The notes under the pieces: model-generated | Told to the model about the DNA's origin: nothing | Database searches by the model: none | The model's input: the letters and a program-made list of their open reading frames with translations, nothing else | Part shown: positions 6,258 to 22,033 of the stretch, piece by piece | Layout of the letters: every line of letters begins with the position of its first letter | How positions within the stretch are numbered: the first letter of the stretch is position 1 | Translations under genes and position numbers: made by a program | IMG/VR virus record: IMGVR_UViG_3300042391_000634 | Span: 186,001-250,000 of that record | From: a virus | DNA length: 64,000 bases | Reading direction: 5' to 3' (one strand)

Positions 6258-7178
6258 ATGGCAGTAGGATCATACGGAGTAATTAGACCAGCAGATGTAT
6301 CACCAGATGACGTAGAAATTCTATATCATTATGCGGCTGATAGAGTCTCAACAACCGCAGTAACATTAAAGAAATTAACGTCAAATCAGGTTTTAACCCC
6401 GATTTTACATACAGGAACAACAACAACCGACACGGCCGCAGTTGGAACTGAAATATTAGGTGGATTATATAATCTATTATTAAGTGCGGACGATTTTAGT
6501 GATTTAGGGATTTATACACTTTATATAAGACCAAAACAAATAAGAACCACAGTTACAGATTGTGGTATTTTAGCGTCCCTACCTTCAGTTAGAGGTGTTG
6601 TTATTGATTTATCAAATGTCCCATCCGCAGATAGAAACAAATTTACACCACAAGGTTTAGTTGGTTATAGAGTTGAATACATCAATCCAAACGATAATAA
6701 GAAATTACCTAACTTTTATAAGATAGTAACATCTTCTTTTTATTGCACACCTGTAACAGCAAATTTAAACACAACAACACAAAAGTCAGTAAGATATCAA
6801 TATAGTGAAGGTGCAACAAACTTTATGTTTTTAACGGTTACACCGTCATCTGCACCATCAAACAAACCAAATACGGTTCCATTTATTGGAAGTCCAGGTC
6901 AAAAGATAATCTTATCAAACACATATTTCAATCCAACAACAATACAAATTGATATGGTTGAACATGACGCTTCAACACTTGCAAATGCTCTTTACGGTAA
7001 TCAAACTAAGGCGGTTACACCAGGTATTTACACAATTTACGATAAAGACAATAACATATATAAACAATATAACTTATTTGAAATCAAAGACGACTTTAAT
7101 GATACTCTTTATGAGGTTAGAGAAACTCGTACCGATATTGATGAAACTTTAAACTTTGATACAATTACCAATATCTAA
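6258..7178 (+). CDS. Probable baseplate-associated structural protein
   Basis: A 306-residue protein beginning '[21 protein letters not shown]'. It is Thr-, Asn- and Val-rich, with beta-type alternation and no membrane segment or catalytic motif. The last 35 residues are polar and charged ('[14 protein letters not shown]') and could be a docking tail. Its stop overlaps the next ATG by one base (TAATG), coupling it to the 1895-residue protein that follows. No family is recognised. It is likely a virion component because it is sandwiched between structural genes, and a TATTTATA box precedes it. Confidence 0.6.
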
Positions 7179-10100: not shown

Positions 10101-12865
10101 AAATTTTCATTGATAATAATGGAGAAGAAAAAATTAAATTAACATCATTTAAATATGGACCTAATGATTGTACAAAAAATATATATGTTGATTTAACCGC
10201 ACGTGCATTTACTGACACTTATGATTGTTCATTAGGACAAGGGTCGGCTGAATGGAAGTTATCAACTCCAACTCCAACCCCAACTCCGGCACCAACCTCA
10301 ACACCAACGGTAACACCAACACCAGTACCAACCTCGACTCCAGTACCAACCTCAACACCAACGGTAACACCAACAAGTACTCCGGCACCAACCGGAACAC
10401 CAACACCAACACCTACTATTACACCAACACCAACGGTAACACCAACACCAACACCAATTCCATGTAATTTTACAATTGAATATACTGCATTAATATCAAC
10501 CCCGACCCCTACACCAACTGTTACACCAACACCAACTGTTACACCAACACCAATTCCATGTAATTTTACAATTGAATATACTGCATTAATATCAACCCCG
10601 ACTCCGACCCCTACTATTACACCAACACCAACGGTAACACCAACCCCAATTCCATGTAGTTTTACAATTGAATATACCGCATTAATTTCAACACCAACCC
10701 CAACACCTACTATTACACCAACACCAACGGTAACACCAACCCCAATTCCATGTATCTTTACAATTGAATATACTGTATTAACACCAACACCAACCCCTAC
10801 ACCAACTGTTACACCAACACCTACACCTAGCATATGTCAAAGACCAACGGGGTTACCTTGGGATATTATTAATTACGCATATAAAATAAATTCGGGAGAT
10901 TCATACACTAACTTCACGTCATCATTACAAGCGGCTTGTGACGCATTAACAGCAATTAGATTGGCGGAACAAACTCAACTTGTTAATTCGGTACTCGGAA
11001 TAACTTTCAATGCTGATCCAGCGGTACAACTTGGAGCAACATTATATAATAATAATTCAATAACAACTTGTGATAAAGTACAATCGGGTTATTATATATA
11101 CGATTTAAGTGGTTTTCAAACGTACATTTTAGGTGTTGGAAGTGATGGATTGGTTACATATTTTGGTGATTGTACGTTAACAACAAATACCCCAACCCCA
11201 ACACCTACGGTTACACCAACACCAGAACCAACTAGTACTCCAACAGTTACACCAATTCCATGTAATTTTACTATTGAGTATACCGTATTAATATCAACCC
11301 CAACCCCAACACCTACTTCAACAAGTACACCAGCACCAACTGAAACACCAACCCCTACACCAACTGTTACCCCAACATCAACACCTACATGTGTGGTAAC
11401 AACATATAATTCATTATTTAGTGGAACTACTTCAGAAAATGCTTGTAATAATATAACACAATATGTGCCGGATGCGTGGGTGTGTATTTTGAATGATAGT
11501 TATTTACAAATTGGTGAAGCTTGGTATACGAATATTAATCTTACAACACCATATCCTGATGGATATTATTGTTTCCATAATGAAACACTTGGGTTTAATA
11601 ATACGTGGGTTTATATTGTAAACGGTTTAATTGATTCTACCGGATTATGTCTGACACCAACAAATACACCGACCCCAACACCTACGGTTACATCAACACC
11701 TGCACCTACTGGCACTCCAACACCAACACCAATTCCATGTAATTTTACAATTGAATATACTGCATTAATATCAACCCCAACCCCAACTCCAACACCATTA
11801 CCAACTAGTACACCAACAGTAACGCCAGATCCAACTAGTACTCCAACAGTAACACCTAACCCAACTAGTACCCCAACAGTAACACCTAACCCAACTAGTA
11901 CCCCAACAGTAACACCTAATCCTACTAGTACACCATTACCAACTAGTACCCCAACGATTACACCAGAACCAACTAGTACACCATTACCAACTAGTACACC
12001 AACGGTTACACCAATTCCGTGTAACTTCACCATTGAATACACTGCATTAATATCAACTCCAACACCAAATCCAACTAGTACACCAACAGTAACACCAAAT
12101 CCAACTAGTACACCAACAGTAACACCAAATCCAACTAGTACACCAACAGTAACGCCAGATCCAACTAGTACACCAAATCCAACTAGTACACCAACAGTAA
12201 CGCCAGATCCAACTAGTACACCAAATCCAACTAGTACACCAACAGTAACGCCAGATCCAACTAGTACACCAAATCCAACTAGTACACCAACACCAACACC
12301 ATTACCAACATCCACACCAACTGTTACACCAACACCTTGCCCATCAGAAGGTACTTTTTTAATGTCTACTTGTGTTGGTTATGATTTATATTACAGATTC
12401 GCGAATGGTAGTTGTGGTACGTATGACACATTTATTGAAAGTAATTCCTCAAGTTGTGGTTATGTTGCACCAACACCCACCCCAACCCCAACCCCATTAC
12501 CGGACGGAGTTTTAAGTTTTGGATCCACAGATGGTGGGTTCATACAGTGTGGAGCGGGTTACGATTCTAATGACTATGAATATTATAGAACATATGAGGT
12601 TATTTTTACGAGCGCACGAAATACGATGGGATATGTTGTTGTCTATTTAAGCGATAATTCAAGTATACAAATACCATTTAATGAAAATGATACCTCCGCA
12701 TCTACAACCATTTTCTGTGGATGTGGATCATCATGTGCGGACATACAATATGTAATGAATATAATATACACCACACCAACCCCAACACCAACAGCGGAAC
12801 CAACATTTACACCAACTCCGACACCAGAAGGAGGTGGAGGACAGGACCCCCTTGAACCTATATAA
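7178..12865 (+). CDS. Giant tail/baseplate protein with Pro-Thr beads-on-a-string C-terminus
   Basis: A 1895-residue protein in two halves. Residues 1-1025 are ordinary globular sequence, including a helical stretch around 330-480 (for example '[15 protein letters not shown]' and '[12 protein letters not shown]') that suggests a tail or baseplate wedge protein. From about residue 1028 to the end it is Pro-Thr linker interrupted by small beads. There are seven copies of a '[12 protein letters not shown]'-type strand motif, two larger Cys beads ending 'GYYIY...GDC' and 'GYYCF...GLC', a third type ending 'SSSCGY', and a distinct terminal domain. No signal peptide or protease motif is seen. The linkers probably extend the beads from the virion; glycosylation of the Thr residues is possible but not shown. 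Confidence 0.75.
10261..10845 (+). repeat. Pro-Thr coding repeat, 5' block
   Basis: Degenerate ACA/CCA codon repeats encode (Pro-Thr)n with Ser, Val and Ala variants. They are interrupted by four copies of a Cys-Phe-Thr-Ile-Glu-Tyr strand module beginning near 10454, 10551, 10646 and 10743. Further copies of the module lie near 11252, 11729 and 12011. Wobble differences between copies show divergence under protein-level constraint. Confidence 0.85.
11653..12340 (+). repeat. Pro-Thr coding repeat, 3' block with higher-order tandem units
   Basis: This block contains near-identical tandem units: a 30-base unit around 11840-11930 and 12060-12150, and a 48-base unit repeated about three times between 12150 and 12290. 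ACTAGT hexamers recur because Thr-Ser is written ACT AGT. The identity is much higher than in the 5' block, which suggests recent expansion. Confidence 0.8.
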
Positions 12866-12890
12866 AATAAAATAAAATAAAATAAACAGA

Positions 12891-12898
12891 TATTTATA
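12891..12898 (+). promoter_or_regulatory. TATTTATA box before gene at 12915
   Basis: TATTTATA ends 16 bases before the ATG. It follows a short run of AAAAT pentamers between 12861 and 12886. The promoter role is inferred from recurrence. Confidence 0.45.
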
Positions 12899-12914
12899 AA
12901 TATAAATTAAAATT

Positions 12915-13652
12915 ATGCCAGTTTTTTTACCATCTAAAACAATAAATTTAAAATTAGGAGCGGGAAGTTCCTCATTTCCAGACAATTTCCAAATTGACAT
13001 ATGGTCTTGGAATGTTACAACTGATGCTGCCGAATTTAATAGAACATATGCAACAGGAATTACTAAAACACAATTAGCAACCGCAGGTGTGGGTTATAAT
13101 GTTACAGGTATTACAGGTAACGATTATAAAGTTGTTGCAACTAGTACAGGAACATGTACAACATTAGACGATGTTGAGGTTTATGTGGATGCATTATCAA
13201 TATACCAACCATCATTTAGTGGAACGTTTACAGATATATATAATGGTTATCCTACGACACCACAAGTTAATACTTTTACACAAACAGGTACAGGTAGTGG
13301 AGAAGATTCGTTTGCTGTAACGGGACCTTATGGTGGTCTACAAAATATTACAGGTAATCACGTTGTTGGTATTTTTGATACTTTATCATATATAGACGCA
13401 ACAGATTTTACATTATCTTATGTAAGTGGAACATCGGGAGGAGTCACAGTTTATGATGATTATGCTAACGGACCATTTAGTAGTTTTTCTATCACTAAAT
13501 CGGGTAAATCATTCACATTAATAGGTAGTTCTAACACATCATTAGCTCCACAAAATTTTGTACCTTTTATTAAAGGAACTATGAGATTAACATATGACCC
13601 ATCAACTTATTATGTTGATTTTGATTATTGGTATAACCCAACTAACATTTAA
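12915..13652 (+). CDS. Adhesin-like structural protein
   Basis: A 245-residue beta-type protein, Gly/Thr/Ser-rich, without signal peptide or membrane helices. Residues 1-85 resemble the N-terminal modules of the genes at 13713 and 14966: a strand, a 'TGI' turn, and a 'STGTC'-like Cys near residue 75. This suggests a shared attachment module. The C-terminal ~150 residues are a different domain with aromatic-rich ends ('YYVDFDYWYNPTNI'). It is flanked upstream by a TATTTATA box and downstream by a hairpin-plus-T terminator, so it may be a single transcription unit. A tail-tip or decoration adhesin is the most likely role; the family is not recognised. Confidence 0.55.
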   Translation: MPVFLPSKTINLKLGAGSSSFPDNFQIDIWSWNVTTDAAEFNRTYATGITKTQLATAGVGYNVTGITGNDYKVVATSTGTCTTLDDVEVYVDALSIYQPSFSGTFTDIYNGYPTTPQVNTFTQTGTGSGEDSFAVTGPYGGLQNITGNHVVGIFDTLSYIDATDFTLSYVSGTSGGVTVYDDYANGPFSSFSITKSGKSFTLIGSSNTSLAPQNFVPFIKGTMRLTYDPSTYYVDFDYWYNPTNI

Positions 13653-13653
13653 T

Positions 13654-13681
13654 AAAACACTTTATTATAAGGGGTTTTTTG
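13654..13681 (+). terminator. Probable intrinsic terminator
   Basis: A hairpin pairs an AAAACAC arm with a GGGGTTTT arm (one mismatch) across an A/T loop, followed by a T run. It lies directly after the stop at 13652 and just before the next TATTTATA box. Confidence 0.6.
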
Positions 13682-13700
13682 TTTAATTTCTATATAATAC

Positions 13701-13708
13701 TATTTATA
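13701..13708 (+). promoter_or_regulatory. TATTTATA box before gene at 13713
   Basis: The box ends only four bases before the ATG. If it acts as a -10 element, the mRNA would be nearly leaderless. Confidence 0.45.
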
Positions 13709-13712
13709 GAAT

Positions 13713-14366
13713 ATGTCCGAATATTTTAATGCTGAAGTTAATATAGGTAAAAAGAGTAACTCAATTGAAAAAGTTAGTTTATACGCATGTTCTGGATCAA
13801 CGGAAGCAACATGTGACCCAACACCAATATCTGGTTATAATGGTATTCTATGGACAGATACAAAATTTTCACCACTTTTTGAGAGTGGTTCATATCCATC
13901 ATTATCAGGATTGGTAACATTTATAACTGGATTAACGTTATACACACATATATATATTAGAGTATTAACAACATCAAGTTATAATGGAAGTTGTATACGT
14001 AGTAATATGATACCAATTATTGGTATCCCAACTCCAACAGCAACACCATTACCAACCTCTACACCAACACCAATACCATGTAGTTTTGACGGAACCATTG
14101 TTTATGGATTACCTGTTACCCCAACTCCTACACCAACACCATTACCAACCTCAACACCAAACCCAACTAGTACACCAACCTCAACACCAAACCCAACTAG
14201 TACACCAACCTCAACACCAAACCCAACACCAACTAGTACACCAACTGTTACACCAACAGCAACAACATTAAGTGGGCCTTATTTTAACTCAATAGGATTA
14301 GCTTATAGCCCAAGTAATCCAAATAAATGTCAAGCATATACTTGTTATAATAATTTAACAACATAA
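13713..14366 (+). CDS. Small Pro-Thr adhesin, apparently ending inside a bead domain
   Basis: A 217-residue protein. The N-terminal ~100 residues are a module ('VSLYACSGS' followed by a later 'SYNGSC') that matches the start of the gene at 14966. Residues about 105-185 are Pro-Thr linker with one '[11 protein letters not shown]' strand module. The last ~30 residues look like the opening of a Cys bead ('[10 protein letters not shown]') but then stop. The next gene, in the same frame after 18 bases, supplies what looks like the rest of that bead. It may therefore be a broken or deliberately split gene. Confidence 0.55.
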
Positions 14367-14384
14367 TTTAAAAAAAAATAATAT

Positions 14385-14705
14385 ATGAGTATACTATGTG
14401 AGTTAGTCACTTTTTATCATAATTTATCGGCAGGATCAAACGGAAATTCACTATTGAATGAAACTTTGTATGGTGACACATCAGGTGGTACAATAATGGA
14501 TGGATATTATTCCGATGGAACATATATCTACACCGTATCGGGAAGTCTTGTTACATATGTTGAAACTGCAGCTTCATTAGGATGTCAAGGTACAACACCA
14601 GAACCAACCGTAACACCAACACCACAAGGATATTCACAACAATTGGGTTATGGAACATCCTCAAATAACGCATGTATTTTCTACACCGGACCAATTGAAG
14701 GGTAA
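14385..14705 (+). CDS. Bead-domain fragment gene with short Pro-Thr linker
   Basis: A 106-residue protein in the same frame as its neighbours, with an A-rich pre-start region. Residues 1-67 look like the C-terminal part of a Cys bead: a 'LYGDTSG' strand, a 'MDGYYSDGTYIY' core and a closing Cys in 'SLGC'. A short linker (about residues 70-82) follows. The protein then ends with the opening of another bead ('SSNNACIFYT'), whose apparent continuation begins in the next gene 21 bases later. Either these are separately translated parts that assemble, or a once-longer gene has been interrupted. Confidence 0.5.
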   Translation: MSILCELVTFYHNLSAGSNGNSLLNETLYGDTSGGTIMDGYYSDGTYIYTVSGSLVTYVETAASLGCQGTTPEPTVTPTPQGYSQQLGYGTSSNNACIFYTGPIEG

Positions 14706-14726
14706 CCACTTTAAAAATAAAAAACA

Positions 14727-14951
14727 ATGTCAGCAGGAACTTTACAATTTTATTCTAATTACGAAACATTACCAACGGCATTATTCGACGATGATATGAA
14801 CCCATTATCACCAACGCCAATTATGTATACAAATATTAACATGACTAGTACAGCAAATAATGGTTATTATTCAAATGGTGTCAATTGGTGGAGAGTAACA
14901 GGTGGTGCAGGAGTAATAACAGATACCGGTGTTTGTCCGGCGGTTGATTAA
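14727..14951 (+). CDS. Small Cys-bead fragment protein
   Basis: A 74-residue protein that is essentially the second half of a Cys bead: strands, 'NNGYYSNG', then 'TDTGVC' near the end. The same order is seen in the beads of the 1895-residue protein. It lies in the same frame as the gene ending at 14705, separated by a 21-base A-rich spacer with three in-frame stops. It starts with Met-Ser like its neighbours, so independent translation is plausible. No membrane segment or enzyme motif is seen. Confidence 0.5.
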   Translation: MSAGTLQFYSNYETLPTALFDDDMNPLSPTPIMYTNINMTSTANNGYYSNGVNWWRVTGGAGVITDTGVCPAVD

Positions 14952-14965
14952 AATAAAAAAAGAAA

Positions 14966-15934
14966 ATGTCAATACCAGTAACAATAACATTAAACACAAT
15001 AGTAGGAACACCAGGTCCTTTTAGTTTATATTCATGTATTGAATCGACTTGTTCGGGTTCATTAACACCATTTGTAACAGGAGTGTCGTTATCTGATTTA
15101 CAAACTGGTAGTTTAGTTCCTGATATTAGCGGAAATACACCTACTTACGTTAAAATTAAATCTACAGGAGGAAGTTGCGCGTATGAAATTATTAAACCAA
15201 TAACAGGAATACCTACGGTAACTCCAACTCCAACACCAACCATAACACCAACACCTGGTTCAACTAGTACCCCAACTCCAACTCCAACTCCAACAGCAAC
15301 AACGGGAACATGTGTACCTAAAGAATATAACATAACAGCTAACGGTAATTTCTATTGGATTGATTGTGAAGGAAATGACAGATATAGTTATTTTACAACT
15401 GCAGATAGTCCAATATGTATTTGTAGTTCAAGTAATTTACCAATATCGTTAGATGGTGGAACAGGAACATTAGCGGGCGGTGGATGTGAATGTAATCCAG
15501 TAACACCAACTCCAACACCGACAGTTACACCAACACCAACCCCAACACCAAACTATTATAATGTAAAAGTTAAATTAGTAGGTATGATGGGTACCAGTGG
15601 GAATTTAACGGTACGTCAATCATCAGATGGTATAACATTTATAAATTCAGTAACAATAACTACCACAGATAACGATGTTGCTCAACAGTCCTTTAACGGT
15701 ACACCAGGTTATTATTATTACTTTATAGTTGCAAGAACTTCAGGTAATTCTGATAGATTGAATTGGTATACCCAAGTATTCCCATCCGACTTCAATCCTG
15801 GATCGATAGCTGATGCCGGTTGCACTTCACTTGGAGGAGCAACATTACAATCAGAGACTTTCCAATTACCAAATCCGACACAAAGTGTATCTGAAGTGTT
15901 ATTTTATGGAGATATAAGTGACGCATGTCTATAA
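14966..15934 (+). CDS. Pro-Thr adhesin with three bead domains
   Basis: A 322-residue protein. The N-terminal module (1-82) has 'FSLYSCIESTC' and 'STGGSC' and parallels the gene at 13713. A Pro-Thr linker follows (83-112). A Cys-rich bead (about 115-178) has 'YWIDCEGNDR', then 'ICICSSS' and 'GGCECNP'. A second linker (179-194) leads to a C-terminal beta domain (about 195-322) with Cys residues near 288 and 321. No signal peptide is present, as expected for virion assembly in the cytoplasm. It is probably a tail-tip or side-fibre adhesin. The bead types are recognised as recurrent in this window but are not assigned to a named family. Confidence 0.6.
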   Translation: MSIPVTITLNTIVGTPGPFSLYSCIESTCSGSLTPFVTGVSLSDLQTGSLVPDISGNTPTYVKIKSTGGSCAYEIIKPITGIPTVTPTPTPTITPTPGSTSTPTPTPTPTATTGTCVPKEYNITANGNFYWIDCEGNDRYSYFTTADSPICICSSSNLPISLDGGTGTLAGGGCECNPVTPTPTPTVTPTPTPTPNYYNVKVKLVGMMGTSGNLTVRQSSDGITFINSVTITTTDNDVAQQSFNGTPGYYYYFIVARTSGNSDRLNWYTQVFPSDFNPGSIADAGCTSLGGATLQSETFQLPNPTQSVSEVLFYGDISDACL

Positions 15935-15950
15935 TAAAATTAAACAAAGA

Positions 15951-15958
15951 TATTTATA
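15951..15958 (+). promoter_or_regulatory. TATTTATA box before gene at 15963
   Basis: The box ends four bases before the ATG, the same spacing as at 13701. The promoter role is inferred. Confidence 0.45.
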
Positions 15959-15962
15959 ACAT

Positions 15963-18041
15963 ATGAGTTTTTTAAATAGTAATAATTCGGAGTTCTTGTC
16001 AGCAAGAATAACCAATAGAGGTAGAAAGGCAATAGCCAAAGGTAGTTTCAATATTGAATATTTTCAAATTGGGGACTCTGAATATGATTACACAACACCA
16101 TTCACAAACTTAACGGGAACCACAGGTCACCAAAAAGTGTTTGCACCATTTGATTATGATGCGGGTGTAAAATACCCACTTTCATTAGATTCGGATCTTA
16201 CAACAACTTATGGACAACCAATATCAAATAGTGAAACGATTAAATTAAGAAATGAAATGGGTGCTGGTGGATTTGTATCACAATATTCAAGTGCTCCAAT
16301 AGTAAAAACCGAAACTCAACAAATTGCATATACCAAAATAAGTGGAACAACAAGTTTAGTTGTTCCGACTGGAGTAACATTTAATGATTGTGAATATATT
16401 ACAATAGTATTTGATAGTTTTTCAACCAAAACAATAACAGGACAAACAAATAGTTTAATTTATAAAGTATTATCTATTAGTGGAAACACATTAACATTAG
16501 ATCGTAACACACCAAACTTAGCGACTTTAACCGGTAATGCACAAGTTGTTTGTAACAAATGTTTAATAGAAGAACAAACTGACGACGTATTCAATCCAAT
16601 TGATTACACAGGCCAATTAAATTCGTGGACATTAAACACGGTATGGACAGAAAAACCAATCGGTGGTGATTATAATGGAACAGATGAAAGTCTATCTGGA
16701 TATACAAGTAATCAATATGTATCAATCAAAAATTTATTAGGTTATACTAAAACAGGACAAACATTTAATAATTTAACAGGAGGAACAATAACAGGAACAA
16801 CATTTAAAAATTCGTTTGATGAATTAATACAAGTTTCACCGTCAGAACAAAGATGTATTGCAATAGTTCATTATTCTGAATTGGGAGATATAGTTGTTGA
16901 CCCCGAAAGATTTTTTAAATATGATGATTACATAAGTTCATTAACAGGAACAACCGGAACGAGTATTTCGTTATTTAATGAGTTAGATGGCGCAGATAGA
17001 GACTACGATAAAAGTGATAGTGAATATTTTGAAGTTTATATTCCATTTATTTATTATCATAGAAATACAGGAACAACATTAGGTGCTTTATTTACAATGG
17101 ATACAACTGATTATTATATTAATTCATCAATTAACTCAAGAAATCAACTTAAGTTTAGATTTTTAGTTGACGAACAAAATAATAAAGTGGGTAAAGTTTT
17201 TGTGAATAATAAAATAATCGTATTTGATGACCAAGAATTGGTTGCGATGTTAGATTATAGGTCAAATAGAAGATACACATTACCATCACCAAAATTAGGG
17301 TTATCATCAAGTGACGGAGTTGCCGCACAATCTATGGTAACAACTACAGGAGATACGGCTTGGGTTACATATATGTTTGAAAATACAAGTGGTAATACTT
17401 TAAATTCATTCCCTTGTAATTATTTTAATAAAATTAGTGGTAATGGAACACCATCACAAATAATGTTTAAATTTAGTGGTAACTCATTTTCCAATATGGC
17501 AACAACGTTAAGTGGAGTAAAAGATGGTTATGTTGCAAATAAATTTTACGCATTAGTTCAAACAGGAACAACACCAACACCAAATTTATGGAAAAAAATA
17601 GATATCACTTCACAAATACCAAGTTATACAAGTGGTTATATTAACCCAACAAGTTTAACGGGAGTATCATTTACAATATCTTATTCAGGTTATACAGGTG
17701 CAACCGCATTTGATTTTGAAGACCATATGTCAGGAGTAACTTCCGATTATCTATGGAACACAACAGGTTCAACAACACAACCTCAATTCGGTGACGAACA
17801 ACCATTCCCTGGTAGTGTTAGATTGGTTAGAGCAAGTGATATTGAAGAGATGAATATGATAATTAACTTACCGTCCACACAATTTACAACAACTCAAAAT
17901 CCAACGTATACTTCTGGAGATAAATACATTACCGAAGTTGCATTATTAGATTCTAATAAGGAACCGTTAGTTGTTGCAAAAACACCGACACCCGTTAAAA
18001 GAGCAGGAACTCAAGTGTTTGCTATCAGATTAGATTTCTAA
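15963..18041 (+). CDS. Tail-collar/baseplate-like structural protein
   Basis: A 692-residue protein. The start ('FLSARITNRGRKAIA', then 'EYFQIGDSEYDY') follows the pattern of the N-terminal domain of tail-collar fibre proteins, in which a basic 'T..G...A' helix is followed by an 'IGD' strand. The end ('YITEVALLDSNKEPLVVAK') matches the closing strands of the same domain. The middle is Thr/Ser/Gly-rich beta sequence without Pro-Thr or collagen-like repeats. It is the last structural gene before the replication block and is preceded by a TATTTATA box. A fibre-attachment or baseplate role is likely; the exact equivalent is unknown. Confidence 0.6.
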   Translation: MSFLNSNNSEFLSARITNRGRKAIAKGSFNIEYFQIGDSEYDYTTPFTNLTGTTGHQKVFAPFDYDAGVKYPLSLDSDLTTTYGQPISNSETIKLRNEMGAGGFVSQYSSAPIVKTETQQIAYTKISGTTSLVVPTGVTFNDCEYITIVFDSFSTKTITGQTNSLIYKVLSISGNTLTLDRNTPNLATLTGNAQVVCNKCLIEEQTDDVFNPIDYTGQLNSWTLNTVWTEKPIGGDYNGTDESLSGYTSNQYVSIKNLLGYTKTGQTFNNLTGGTITGTTFKNSFDELIQVSPSEQRCIAIVHYSELGDIVVDPERFFKYDDYISSLTGTTGTSISLFNELDGADRDYDKSDSEYFEVYIPFIYYHRNTGTTLGALFTMDTTDYYINSSINSRNQLKFRFLVDEQNNKVGKVFVNNKIIVFDDQELVAMLDYRSNRRYTLPSPKLGLSSSDGVAAQSMVTTTGDTAWVTYMFENTSGNTLNSFPCNYFNKISGNGTPSQIMFKFSGNSFSNMATTLSGVKDGYVANKFYALVQTGTTPTPNLWKKIDITSQIPSYTSGYINPTSLTGVSFTISYSGYTGATAFDFEDHMSGVTSDYLWNTTGSTTQPQFGDEQPFPGSVRLVRASDIEEMNMIINLPSTQFTTTQNPTYTSGDKYITEVALLDSNKEPLVVAKTPTPVKRAGTQVFAIRLDF

Positions 18042-18080
18042 CTCTTTACTATTCAGTTAATTTAAGTTAATTTTTACTCT

Positions 18081-18689
18081 ATGAGTATAGATATTAATTT
18101 CAAAAACAAACCAAAGATTCTCGGTCTTGACATCAGCACGAAGACGATCGGCTTTGCTTTATTTGATATGACGGGTTCTAAATTATTAGAACTAACACAT
18201 TTTTCACCAAAAATTAAACCACAACCTGAAGATAAGATTGAGGAATTAATTAAAAAAGCTGACGCATTCAAAAAACATTTGGAAAGTTATAAAGACATGG
18301 GGATTCTTCGTGTCATCATTGAAGAACCATTGTTGCAGTCAAATAATATCTATACCATTGGAACATTATTACGTTATAACACGTTGATACTCAAGAACTG
18401 TTACGATGTATTAGGAGTTTTACCAACATTTATTTCAACATATAATTCAAGAAAATTTGCGTTCCCTGATTTGGTAGGACCAAATGATAAAGGACGTAAT
18501 GTTCTATTTGGTGGATACCCAAGAGATATAGATAAGAAACATGTTATTTGGGAACACGTTAATAGTGTGTGTCCTGATGTAAATTGGTTATACGGTAAAA
18601 CAGGTAATCTTAAAAAAGAAAACTATGACATGGCAGATGCGGCATGTTGTGTAATTGGTTATGTTAATATGAACAAACAAACATCTTAA
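18081..18689 (+). CDS. RuvC-like Holliday junction resolvase
   Basis: A 202-residue protein with the RNase H-like resolvase signature. There is a first catalytic Asp at 17 in 'GLDIST', acidic residues 81-82 at the end of a hydrophobic strand ('VIIEEPL'), and the C-terminal pair Asp183/Asp186 in 'DMADAACC'. The size is close to that of bacterial RuvC. Its likely job is to cut four-way junctions during recombination-dependent replication and before packaging. It opens the DNA-metabolism block, upstream of primase, exonuclease and the gp47/gp46 pair. A related RNase H-fold nuclease cannot be fully excluded. Confidence 0.8.
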   Translation: MSIDINFKNKPKILGLDISTKTIGFALFDMTGSKLLELTHFSPKIKPQPEDKIEELIKKADAFKKHLESYKDMGILRVIIEEPLLQSNNIYTIGTLLRYNTLILKNCYDVLGVLPTFISTYNSRKFAFPDLVGPNDKGRNVLFGGYPRDIDKKHVIWEHVNSVCPDVNWLYGKTGNLKKENYDMADAACCVIGYVNMNKQTS

Positions 18690-18690
18690 A

Positions 18691-18703
18691 ATTTTCGGCA
18701 ACT
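18691..18703 (+). promoter_or_regulatory. 13-base box ATTTTCGGCAACT, copy 1
   Basis: Identical to the box at 21965-21977. Both lie just after a stop codon and 26-28 bases upstream of a TATATTT(T)ATTAATA element, which suggests a two-part promoter. Confidence 0.5.
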
Positions 18704-18731
18704 AATATTTTACATTACAGGTTGTTATAGA

Positions 18732-18745
18732 TATATTTATTAATA
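18732..18745 (+). promoter_or_regulatory. TATATTTATTAATA promoter-like element
   Basis: Lies immediately before the GC-rich hairpin region at 18746. A near-identical element follows the second copy of the 13-base box at 22004-22018. Confidence 0.5.
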
Positions 18746-18817
18746 GGACGGGACGAGAGTTAAAATCCTCGTTTGGTTGGAGGGAGTCGAGGTGGTGTTC
18801 GGCTCCCATTTTTTTTT
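18746..18817 (+). ncRNA. Candidate short structured RNA or primase leader attenuator
   Basis: A conspicuously G-rich 70-base stretch in AT-rich DNA. It holds a first hairpin (GACGAG 18752-18757 with CTCGTT 18768-18773, 10-base loop) and a second strong hairpin with a T tail. It is preceded by the TATATTTATTAATA element and followed by a separate TATATTTTG box before the primase. This arrangement would give a short terminated transcript. It could be a regulatory sRNA or an attenuator in the primase leader. It does not fold as a tRNA and contains no convincing coding frame. Confidence 0.5.
18782..18817 (+). terminator. Strong intrinsic terminator
   Basis: GGGAGTCG (18782-18789) pairs with CGGCTCCC (18800-18807), eight pairs including one G-U. 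It is followed by A and then nine T residues. Confidence 0.85.
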
Positions 18818-18832
18818 ATCATACTTTTTTAT

Positions 18833-18841
18833 TATATTTTG
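18833..18841 (+). promoter_or_regulatory. TATATTTTG box before primase
   Basis: Resembles the Bacteroidota -7 element (TAnnTTTG) with one extra T. It lies between the terminator and the primase ATG at 18845, so primase could be transcribed independently, although the leader would be nearly absent. Confidence 0.35.
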
Positions 18842-18844
18842 ATA

Positions 18845-19786
18845 ATGAGCACCCAAGAAGTAGATTACTCCGCAGTATTCGATATTTTAGAAGATATGTT
18901 TGGTGACTATAAAAATCACAATGATTATAGATACCAAGTGTCATTTGACTGCCCCGTGTGTTCACACGAAATTAAAGGGTTAGAACAAGGAGATGGTAAA
19001 GGAAATCTTGAGGTGAATTACAAGTATGGTGTTTATAAATGTTGGGTGTGTGCTGAAACACATGGAACTCATGGTTCAATTTATAAACTAATTAAAAAGT
19101 TTGGGAATCCAAAACAATTAAAGAAATATCTTTTATTGAAACCTGAGGATGATGAAGAGATTGCAAATAGAACATACAAACCAGTTAAATTACCAAAAGA
19201 ATTTATTTTATTTAAAGATGCTAGTATGGGACTTAAGATGACCCCACAATACAAGCAGGCATATAACTATATCAAAAATAGACACATAACAGATTTGATG
19301 TTACAAATCTATAATATTGGTTTTTGTTATAGTGGACCATATGAAAGTAGAATTATAATTCCATCTTATGACGAGAACAAAAGAATAAATTATTTTATTG
19401 CTCGTTCTTATTTACAGAAGACAAAAAGAAAATACATGAATCCTGAAGCACAAAAGGAAACAATTATTTTCAATGAACATTTAATTAATTGGGACGAACC
19501 AATATACATAGTAGAAGGAGCTTTTGATAGTATTTTTATTCCTAATGCAATTCCAATGTTGGGAAAGTTTATTAGTGAACATTTATTTATGAAACTCTAC
19601 AATAATGCCAAAAAAATAGTTATAGTATTAGATCCTGATGCGTATAATGACCAAGAAAGATTATACCATAGGTTAAACTGTGGTAAGTTAATGGGGAAAG
19701 TGTGGAGTATTAAATTGGAAGGAGATAAAGATATTGCCGATTTACAAGGGAACTTAAGTGAATATAAAATGAAACAAATAGATTAG
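18845..19786 (+). CDS. DnaG-like DNA primase
   Basis: A 313-residue protein with two primase modules. The zinc-binding module has Cys36/Cys39 ('CPVC') and Cys66/Cys69 ('CWVC') followed by His73/His76. The Toprim core has Glu224 in 'IVEGAFDSI' and Asp263/Asp265 in 'VLDPDAYND'. It makes RNA primers at the fork. It is shorter than bacterial DnaG and lacks an obvious C-terminal helicase-binding domain, as in T4 gp61-type primases. The ATG at 18845 is chosen because the upstream in-frame TTG at 18773 lies inside the hairpin region and would add a non-conserved Phe/Ile-rich leader. Confidence 0.85.
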   Translation: MSTQEVDYSAVFDILEDMFGDYKNHNDYRYQVSFDCPVCSHEIKGLEQGDGKGNLEVNYKYGVYKCWVCAETHGTHGSIYKLIKKFGNPKQLKKYLLLKPEDDEEIANRTYKPVKLPKEFILFKDASMGLKMTPQYKQAYNYIKNRHITDLMLQIYNIGFCYSGPYESRIIIPSYDENKRINYFIARSYLQKTKRKYMNPEAQKETIIFNEHLINWDEPIYIVEGAFDSIFIPNAIPMLGKFISEHLFMKLYNNAKKIVIVLDPDAYNDQERLYHRLNCGKLMGKVWSIKLEGDKDIADLQGNLSEYKMKQID

Positions 19787-21964: not shown

Positions 21965-21977
21965 ATTTTCGGCAACT
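21965..21977 (+). promoter_or_regulatory. 13-base box ATTTTCGGCAACT, copy 2
   Basis: Identical to 18691-18703 and followed after 26 bases by TATATTTTATTAATA at 22004-22018. It probably starts a transcript for the gene at 22034. Confidence 0.5.
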
Positions 21978-22003
21978 TACTTTTTTTTACGGAATCTTTT
22001 GTC

Positions 22004-22018
22004 TATATTTTATTAATA
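22004..22018 (+). promoter_or_regulatory. TATATTTTATTAATA promoter-like element
   Basis: Shares the core of the element at 18732. It lies 15 bases before the ATG at 22034. Confidence 0.45.
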
Positions 22019-22033
22019 TAAATAATAACATAA

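Follow-up and report, generated by a model that had tools for sequence, protein, structure and literature searches.

A candidate new family of small RNA with its own promoter and terminator upstream of the primase gene in one clade of jumbo phages

The 155-base gap that separates a RuvC-like resolvase gene (18081-18689) from a primase gene (ATG at 18845) in the genome of a large phage appears to harbour an independent small-RNA gene, a reading to which we give a probability of about 0.72 on sequence comparisons. The gene would represent a new family carried by one clade of jumbo phages, with its own promoter and its own terminator, and its product would act in trans. The window, i.e. the whole stretch of 64,000 nucleotides analysed here, covers positions 186001-250000 of a virus record 335,630 bases long (G000, a phage of ~336 kb).

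Results

Organisation of the locus

The upstream gene codes for a RuvC-like Holliday junction resolvase (PHROG 159, E = 4.9e-6) and the downstream one (18845-19786) for a DnaG-type DNA primase (PHROG 47, E = 2.2e-39; Pfam DNAG_N), both on the plus strand, as are all features described below at this locus. Between them are found, in this order, GGCAAC, TTTT, TATATTTA, a first hairpin, a linker, a terminator hairpin, nine T, TATATTTT and the primase ATG. A previous, sequence-only reading had placed in 18690-18845 a promoter-like TATATTTATTAATA box, a G-rich stretch with two hairpins, and a second box, TATATTTTG. The first box is present at 18732-18745, the second at 18833-18841, and the G-rich stretch and both hairpins lie where they had been described. 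The span given to the whole was slightly wide for the RNA itself (~18745-18815), yet the promoter begins near 18697.

The predicted promoter of the small RNA

The promoter consensus of Bacteroidetes consists of a -33 TTTG and a -7 TAHHTTTG element, the T of which is counted as -12 (PMC6847099), and early-type promoters of the record follow this rule. In front of the small RNA, TTTT (18708-18711) occupies the -33 position, 20 nt before a -7 element, TATATTTA (18732-18739), that reads TATATTT or TATACTT in 53 of the 56 upstream sets. With the T = -12 spacing rule (PMC6847099), we infer a start site at 18744-18745, which predicts an RNA of about 70 nt. Further upstream, at about -47, stands GGCAAC (18697-18702), of which GGCA is found in 49/56 sets; its spacing to TATATTT is exactly 35 nt in 45 of the 47 cases where it could be measured, and it is probably the site of an activator or of a phage factor.

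Only two sites of this GGCAAC-type promoter were found in the 336-kb record. The second, GGCAAC...TTTTTTTTAC...TATATTTT, is located at 21971-22033 of the window (G000:207971), with matching places at G001:142129 and G003:130462, and since it recurs there before another gene set, we consider the GGCAAC type to be a real class of phage promoters. This second copy precedes a variable cassette, among whose products are a 174-aa protein that matches nothing in Pfam or PHROG and a DNA methylase.

Composition, fold and terminator

The stretch predicted to form the small RNA (18745-18815), for which 54 distinct homologous sequences were collected, has 53% GC and 37% G, to be compared with 31% GC for the genome; an equal G count is reached in just 427 of the 335,565 plus-strand 66-nt windows of the record. 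The 76-nt fold has an energy of -28.9 kcal/mol, versus -18.9 for shuffled sequences (z = -3.5; 1/200 shuffles as good), and six relatives folded singly gave z values from -4.3 to -5.8.

Hairpin 1 (GAC.GGGAC...GUUU.GGUU, about 18747-18778), delineated by single-sequence folds and by the pair counts of helices 1 and 2, includes weak G-U pairs. The linker motif GGUUGG (18775-18780), which is AGUUGG in some of the aligned sequences, is partly contained in its base. The terminator hairpin (18782-18807) came out of the pattern scan with 10 pairs and a 6-nt loop, or with 8 if the loop is taken as larger; its stem covaries in the alignments, and its apical loop region, (A)GGUGGUGU (18790-18798), corresponds to invariant columns in alignments A1 and A2. 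On its 3' side come an A and then nine T (18809-18817), and 51 of the 56 sets have 8 T or more. This site has the top score of the 10 terminator-like sites in 18 kb, and because 7.9 are expected by chance, it stands out by quality and not by number. The initial description of the second hairpin as a terminator, with eight pairs and nine T, is borne out by this best-scoring site.

Conservation and covariation

Alignment A2 comprised 22 sequences, aligned by sequence alone. Standard pairs filled 97.4% of its cells, both sides had changed in 13 of 21 pairs, and the covariation score was 0.608, against 0.157 for shuffles and 0.07-0.22 for structures slid by 1-3 columns. Alignment A3 brought together the 54 distinct sequences, aligned to a model derived from A2: 97.9% of base-pair cells were kept and the score reached 0.803, versus 0.214 for shuffles (0/500 as good), figures that are somewhat favoured because the sequences were aligned to the resulting model. 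Both-side changes in A3 concerned 17/21 pairs, so that the pairing first noticed in a single sequence is conserved, with compensation, in its relatives.

In the terminator stem, compensated variation was observed at all 9 modelled pairs, while the loop core UGGUG stayed constant. UGGUG is invariant among homologues and UGGUGU nearly so, the sole exception read being UGGUGC in L054; divergent relatives retain the loop. The linker GUUGG is retained in 51/54 distinct sequences, and the 5' strand GACGGG is exact in 42 of them. Hairpin 1 is composite: its upper stem covaries, and its weak, G-U-rich base is near-constant in sequence, the lower part being made mostly of G-U, A-U and C-G pairs (three of the G-U pairs are conserved) whose letters hardly change. 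This suggests that the letters of GACGGG and GUUUGGUUGG matter in themselves, and that the base may be meant to open.

RNA lengths modulo 3 are evenly spread (20/19/17 for the 56 sets) and an ATG is present within the RNA in just 18/56 sets, which argues for a non-coding RNA. The protein-coding reading is ruled out by these lengths, no frame being conserved.

Distribution

A scan with the primase found 80 viral contigs. The element was found upstream of the primase gene in the 62 closest ones (L001-L062; primase identity 61-97%) and was absent from the 18 most distant (L063-L080; 46-53%); further divergent members were added by pattern scans. Its presence and absence require at most 2 changes on the primase tree, which is compatible with a single origin. 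The element is conserved among phages with primases that are about 40% different, and in all convincing members checked it is flanked by RuvC and primase. Whole-record searches with a covariance model gave one convincing copy in each of 13 carrier records. Weak matches considered as second copies (G000:36162, G016:81247 and others) were ordinary terminators or chance matches.

Two insertions leave the RNA unit intact: in L276 the RNA and the primase are separated by a 407-codon gene, and RuvC and the RNA by a short gene in the L307 group. Judged by eye, the product of the L276 inserted gene (12218-13441) is class-III aminotransferase-like, of the glutamate-1-semialdehyde aminotransferase type.

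Pattern scans of bacterial genomes gave 76 matches, none convincing by the RNA model. No homologous DNA was found in isolated phages, and the region 5' of the immuto primase gave no match. The earlier remark that the structure fits no nameable RNA family agrees with our search of Rfam 15, where no part of the window matched at gathering scores (best sub-threshold match 16.4 bits, 45 being needed).

Probable phage group and host

Genes for ribosomal protein S21, a tmRNA and four tRNAs are present in the record. Because of these genes, its 31% GC and its promoter rule, the phage looks as if it belongs, and probably does belong, to the freshwater Bacteroidetes phages that encode bS21 (Chen et al. 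2022, PMC9723584); the clade that carries the small RNA is very probably composed of jumbo phages infecting freshwater Bacteroidetes. The S21 gene is at G000:122185-122331, minus strand, and the predicted tmRNA (tag ATSTVAVA) and the four tRNAs (Glu, Ser, Met, Thr) are at 6275-6679 and 10452-11590 of L180, also on the minus strand.

Two other observations were made in this genome. On the minus strand of L177 (G000:20001-40000), at ~10500-18500, an early-type region contains many dispersed copies of TGTTTGGCAA / TTGCCAAACA and of GTATTACA, placed upstream of Bacteroidetes-type promoters and possibly constituting a repeated regulatory site. At 13713-15934 of the window, neighbouring proteins exhibit long TPTPTPT (threonine-proline) repeats.

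Discussion

We propose that an RNA of ~70 nt would be transcribed from a promoter dedicated to it, which a phage factor probably activates at GGCAAC, and would stop at an intrinsic terminator of its own. Its fold would comprise a 5' hairpin, the base of which is weak and switchable, and a stable terminator hairpin, and the molecule would offer invariant G/U-rich single strands, namely the loop GUGGUGU, the linker GGUUGG and, once the weak base opens, GACGGG. As the exposed letters are identical across phages of presumably different hosts, their partner is expected to be the same from one host to the next, either a universal host RNA or a conserved protein; the RNA would act in trans, and base pairing with the former or binding to the latter is the most likely mode. 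The pattern could also arise without any trans-acting RNA, from a conserved structured terminator whose loop binds a protein. The unit kept intact despite the insertions in L276 and L307, the dedicated promoter, and the box that the primase gene has of its own fit an independent small RNA. With a defined promoter, a structure, an invariant loop and dozens of environmental genomes at hand, this small RNA is directly testable, and public lake metatranscriptomes have been used for the bS21 phage group (PMC9723584).

A more specific form of the small-RNA reading, rather than an alternative to it, is that the RNA is antisense to the decoding site of host 16S rRNA and controls ribosomes during infection by phages that bring their own S21 and tmRNA, either by blocking or remodelling host 30S subunits or by capturing nascent 16S rRNA. 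We hold this lead to be rather unlikely, with arguments on both sides. Taken in order and without gap, GACGGG and UGGUGU can pair with 12 contiguous 16S bases, 5'-ACACCGCCCGUC-3', which we take to be positions 1396-1407 of E. coli, in the decoding site: GACGGG pairs with CCCGUC (1402-1407), and the loop GUGGUGU with the adjacent ACACCG(C) (1396-1401/1402). No other two-segment site found in the whole Bacteroidetes 16S scores as high (10.81, next found 7.63). A universal target would explain the invariant loop. The weak G-U pairs holding GACGGG stay weak, and the record does encode bS21 and tmRNA. None of 2000 dinucleotide-shuffled 16S sequences reached the score of the site; when any of three conserved segment pairs was allowed, 2/2000 shuffles did so for 16S and 13/2000 for 16S plus 23S. 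For 3 of the 54 rows of this test, the loop was extracted as TGGTGG, not TGGTGT. The p-values are optimistic and overstate the case because the site was picked post hoc, having been thought of before testing. The target being invariant, compensatory change cannot be sought. Moreover, GACGGG is exact in only the 42 sequences mentioned above, four more keeping the 16S pairing by wobble, and in the mature 30S much of 1402-1407 lies inside helix 44. In the literature, we found no precedent for a small RNA antisense to the decoding site. If true, the lead would reveal a novel means by which phages seize host ribosomes. Pairing with the 3' end of 16S (the anti-Shine-Dalgarno) was rejected by inspection, because variable loop positions would be needed.

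The sequence-only reading had hesitated between a small regulatory RNA and an attenuator controlling primase. In the latter case, the element would be a cis-acting leader in which regulated termination sets read-through from the RuvC operon into the primase gene. It is true that the element is always 5' of primase, the end of the model match being mostly 23-45 nt from the ATG, and that its terminator is strong. However, a -7 box proper to the primase gene, TATATTTT (18833-18840), lies downstream of this terminator, and a TATATTT-like box is recognised there, by its letters, in 56/56 sets; the T9 tract also overlaps the expected -33 position of this promoter. By the same -7 spacing rule (PMC6847099), the primase +1 is predicted at 18845, the A of the ATG, so that the mRNA would be leaderless. 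In addition, the promoter dedicated to the RNA begins a short distance 5' of it, a whole gene intervenes between RNA and primase in L276, and no conserved alternative (antiterminator) pairing was seen. Attenuation of primase is unlikely, since the gene has a predicted promoter of its own and can be parted from the RNA by an entire gene. Of the two initial proposals, it is the small regulatory RNA that is supported, given its promoter, structure, loop and linker, terminator, non-coding character and absence from Rfam. Genome-wide, TATATTT boxes in G000 peak 11-15 nt before the ATG (22 genes); together with the spacing rule of F. johnsoniae, this peak predicts one class of phage genes with leaderless or nearly leaderless mRNAs.

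It is less likely still that the gap only accommodates a terminator and a promoter, as a spacer devoid of functional RNA. Similar GTAGAAATAC hairpins do occur in terminators elsewhere in the phage, but a mere spacer leaves unexplained the conserved 5' hairpin, linker, loop and fixed promoter, as well as their conservation across phages with ~40% primase divergence.

Partners of the small RNA among phage messengers were also sought. Complementarity of the loop and 5' strand to the translation-start regions of 123 ortholog groups was no better than that of shuffled segments; near the starts of phage mRNAs, the loop complement ACACCAC occurs in 0-2 genes per genome and is not consistently shared, and ACACC is absent from the phage tmRNA. 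Repression of the tail-sheath gene by pairing of GUUUGGUU with AACCAAAC in its 5' UTR, an 8-nt match without any mismatch that is conserved among the phages examined first (0/30 shuffled segments as good), is hardly credible and was set aside, because the two sides fail to vary together over 17 phages: L035 has GUUUAGUU but AACCAAAU, and AACC is lost in L276, L142, L292 and L129 though their RNA keeps GGUU. In many relatives, the tail-sheath 5' UTR (G000:154810-154869) is a conserved leader in which AACCAAAC precedes the ATG by 12-19 nt, probably as a signal for translation or expression in its own right.

The independent small RNA that we favour can be compared with several known systems. The oop RNA of phage lambda is a phage-encoded, trans-acting small RNA that ends in an intrinsic terminator. 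The RNA described here is similarly short, with its own promoter and terminator, and adjoins replication genes; unlike oop, which is antisense to an adjacent gene, it has no validated antisense partner in its own genome, and we found nothing that suggests homology between the two. To our knowledge, few small RNAs are known from lytic jumbo phages, and our literature search found none for Bacteroidetes phages. Candidate structured RNAs derived from comparative genomics (PMC2864571, PMC8040213) likewise display covariation without known function, and the phage RNA was compared with such families through Rfam 15, where it has no match at gathering scores. The bS21-encoding phages resemble our phage by their genome size, their GC content and the presence of bS21, and the main text of their description makes no mention of noncoding or small RNAs (Chen et al. 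2022, PMC9723584). Finally, the promoter shares with Bacteroidetes sigma-ABfr promoters (PMC6847099) the -33/-7 layout and the TAHHTTT box, and differs from them by its -33 element, TTTT instead of TTTG, by the final A instead of G of its -7 element, and by the addition of GGCAAC at a fixed distance.
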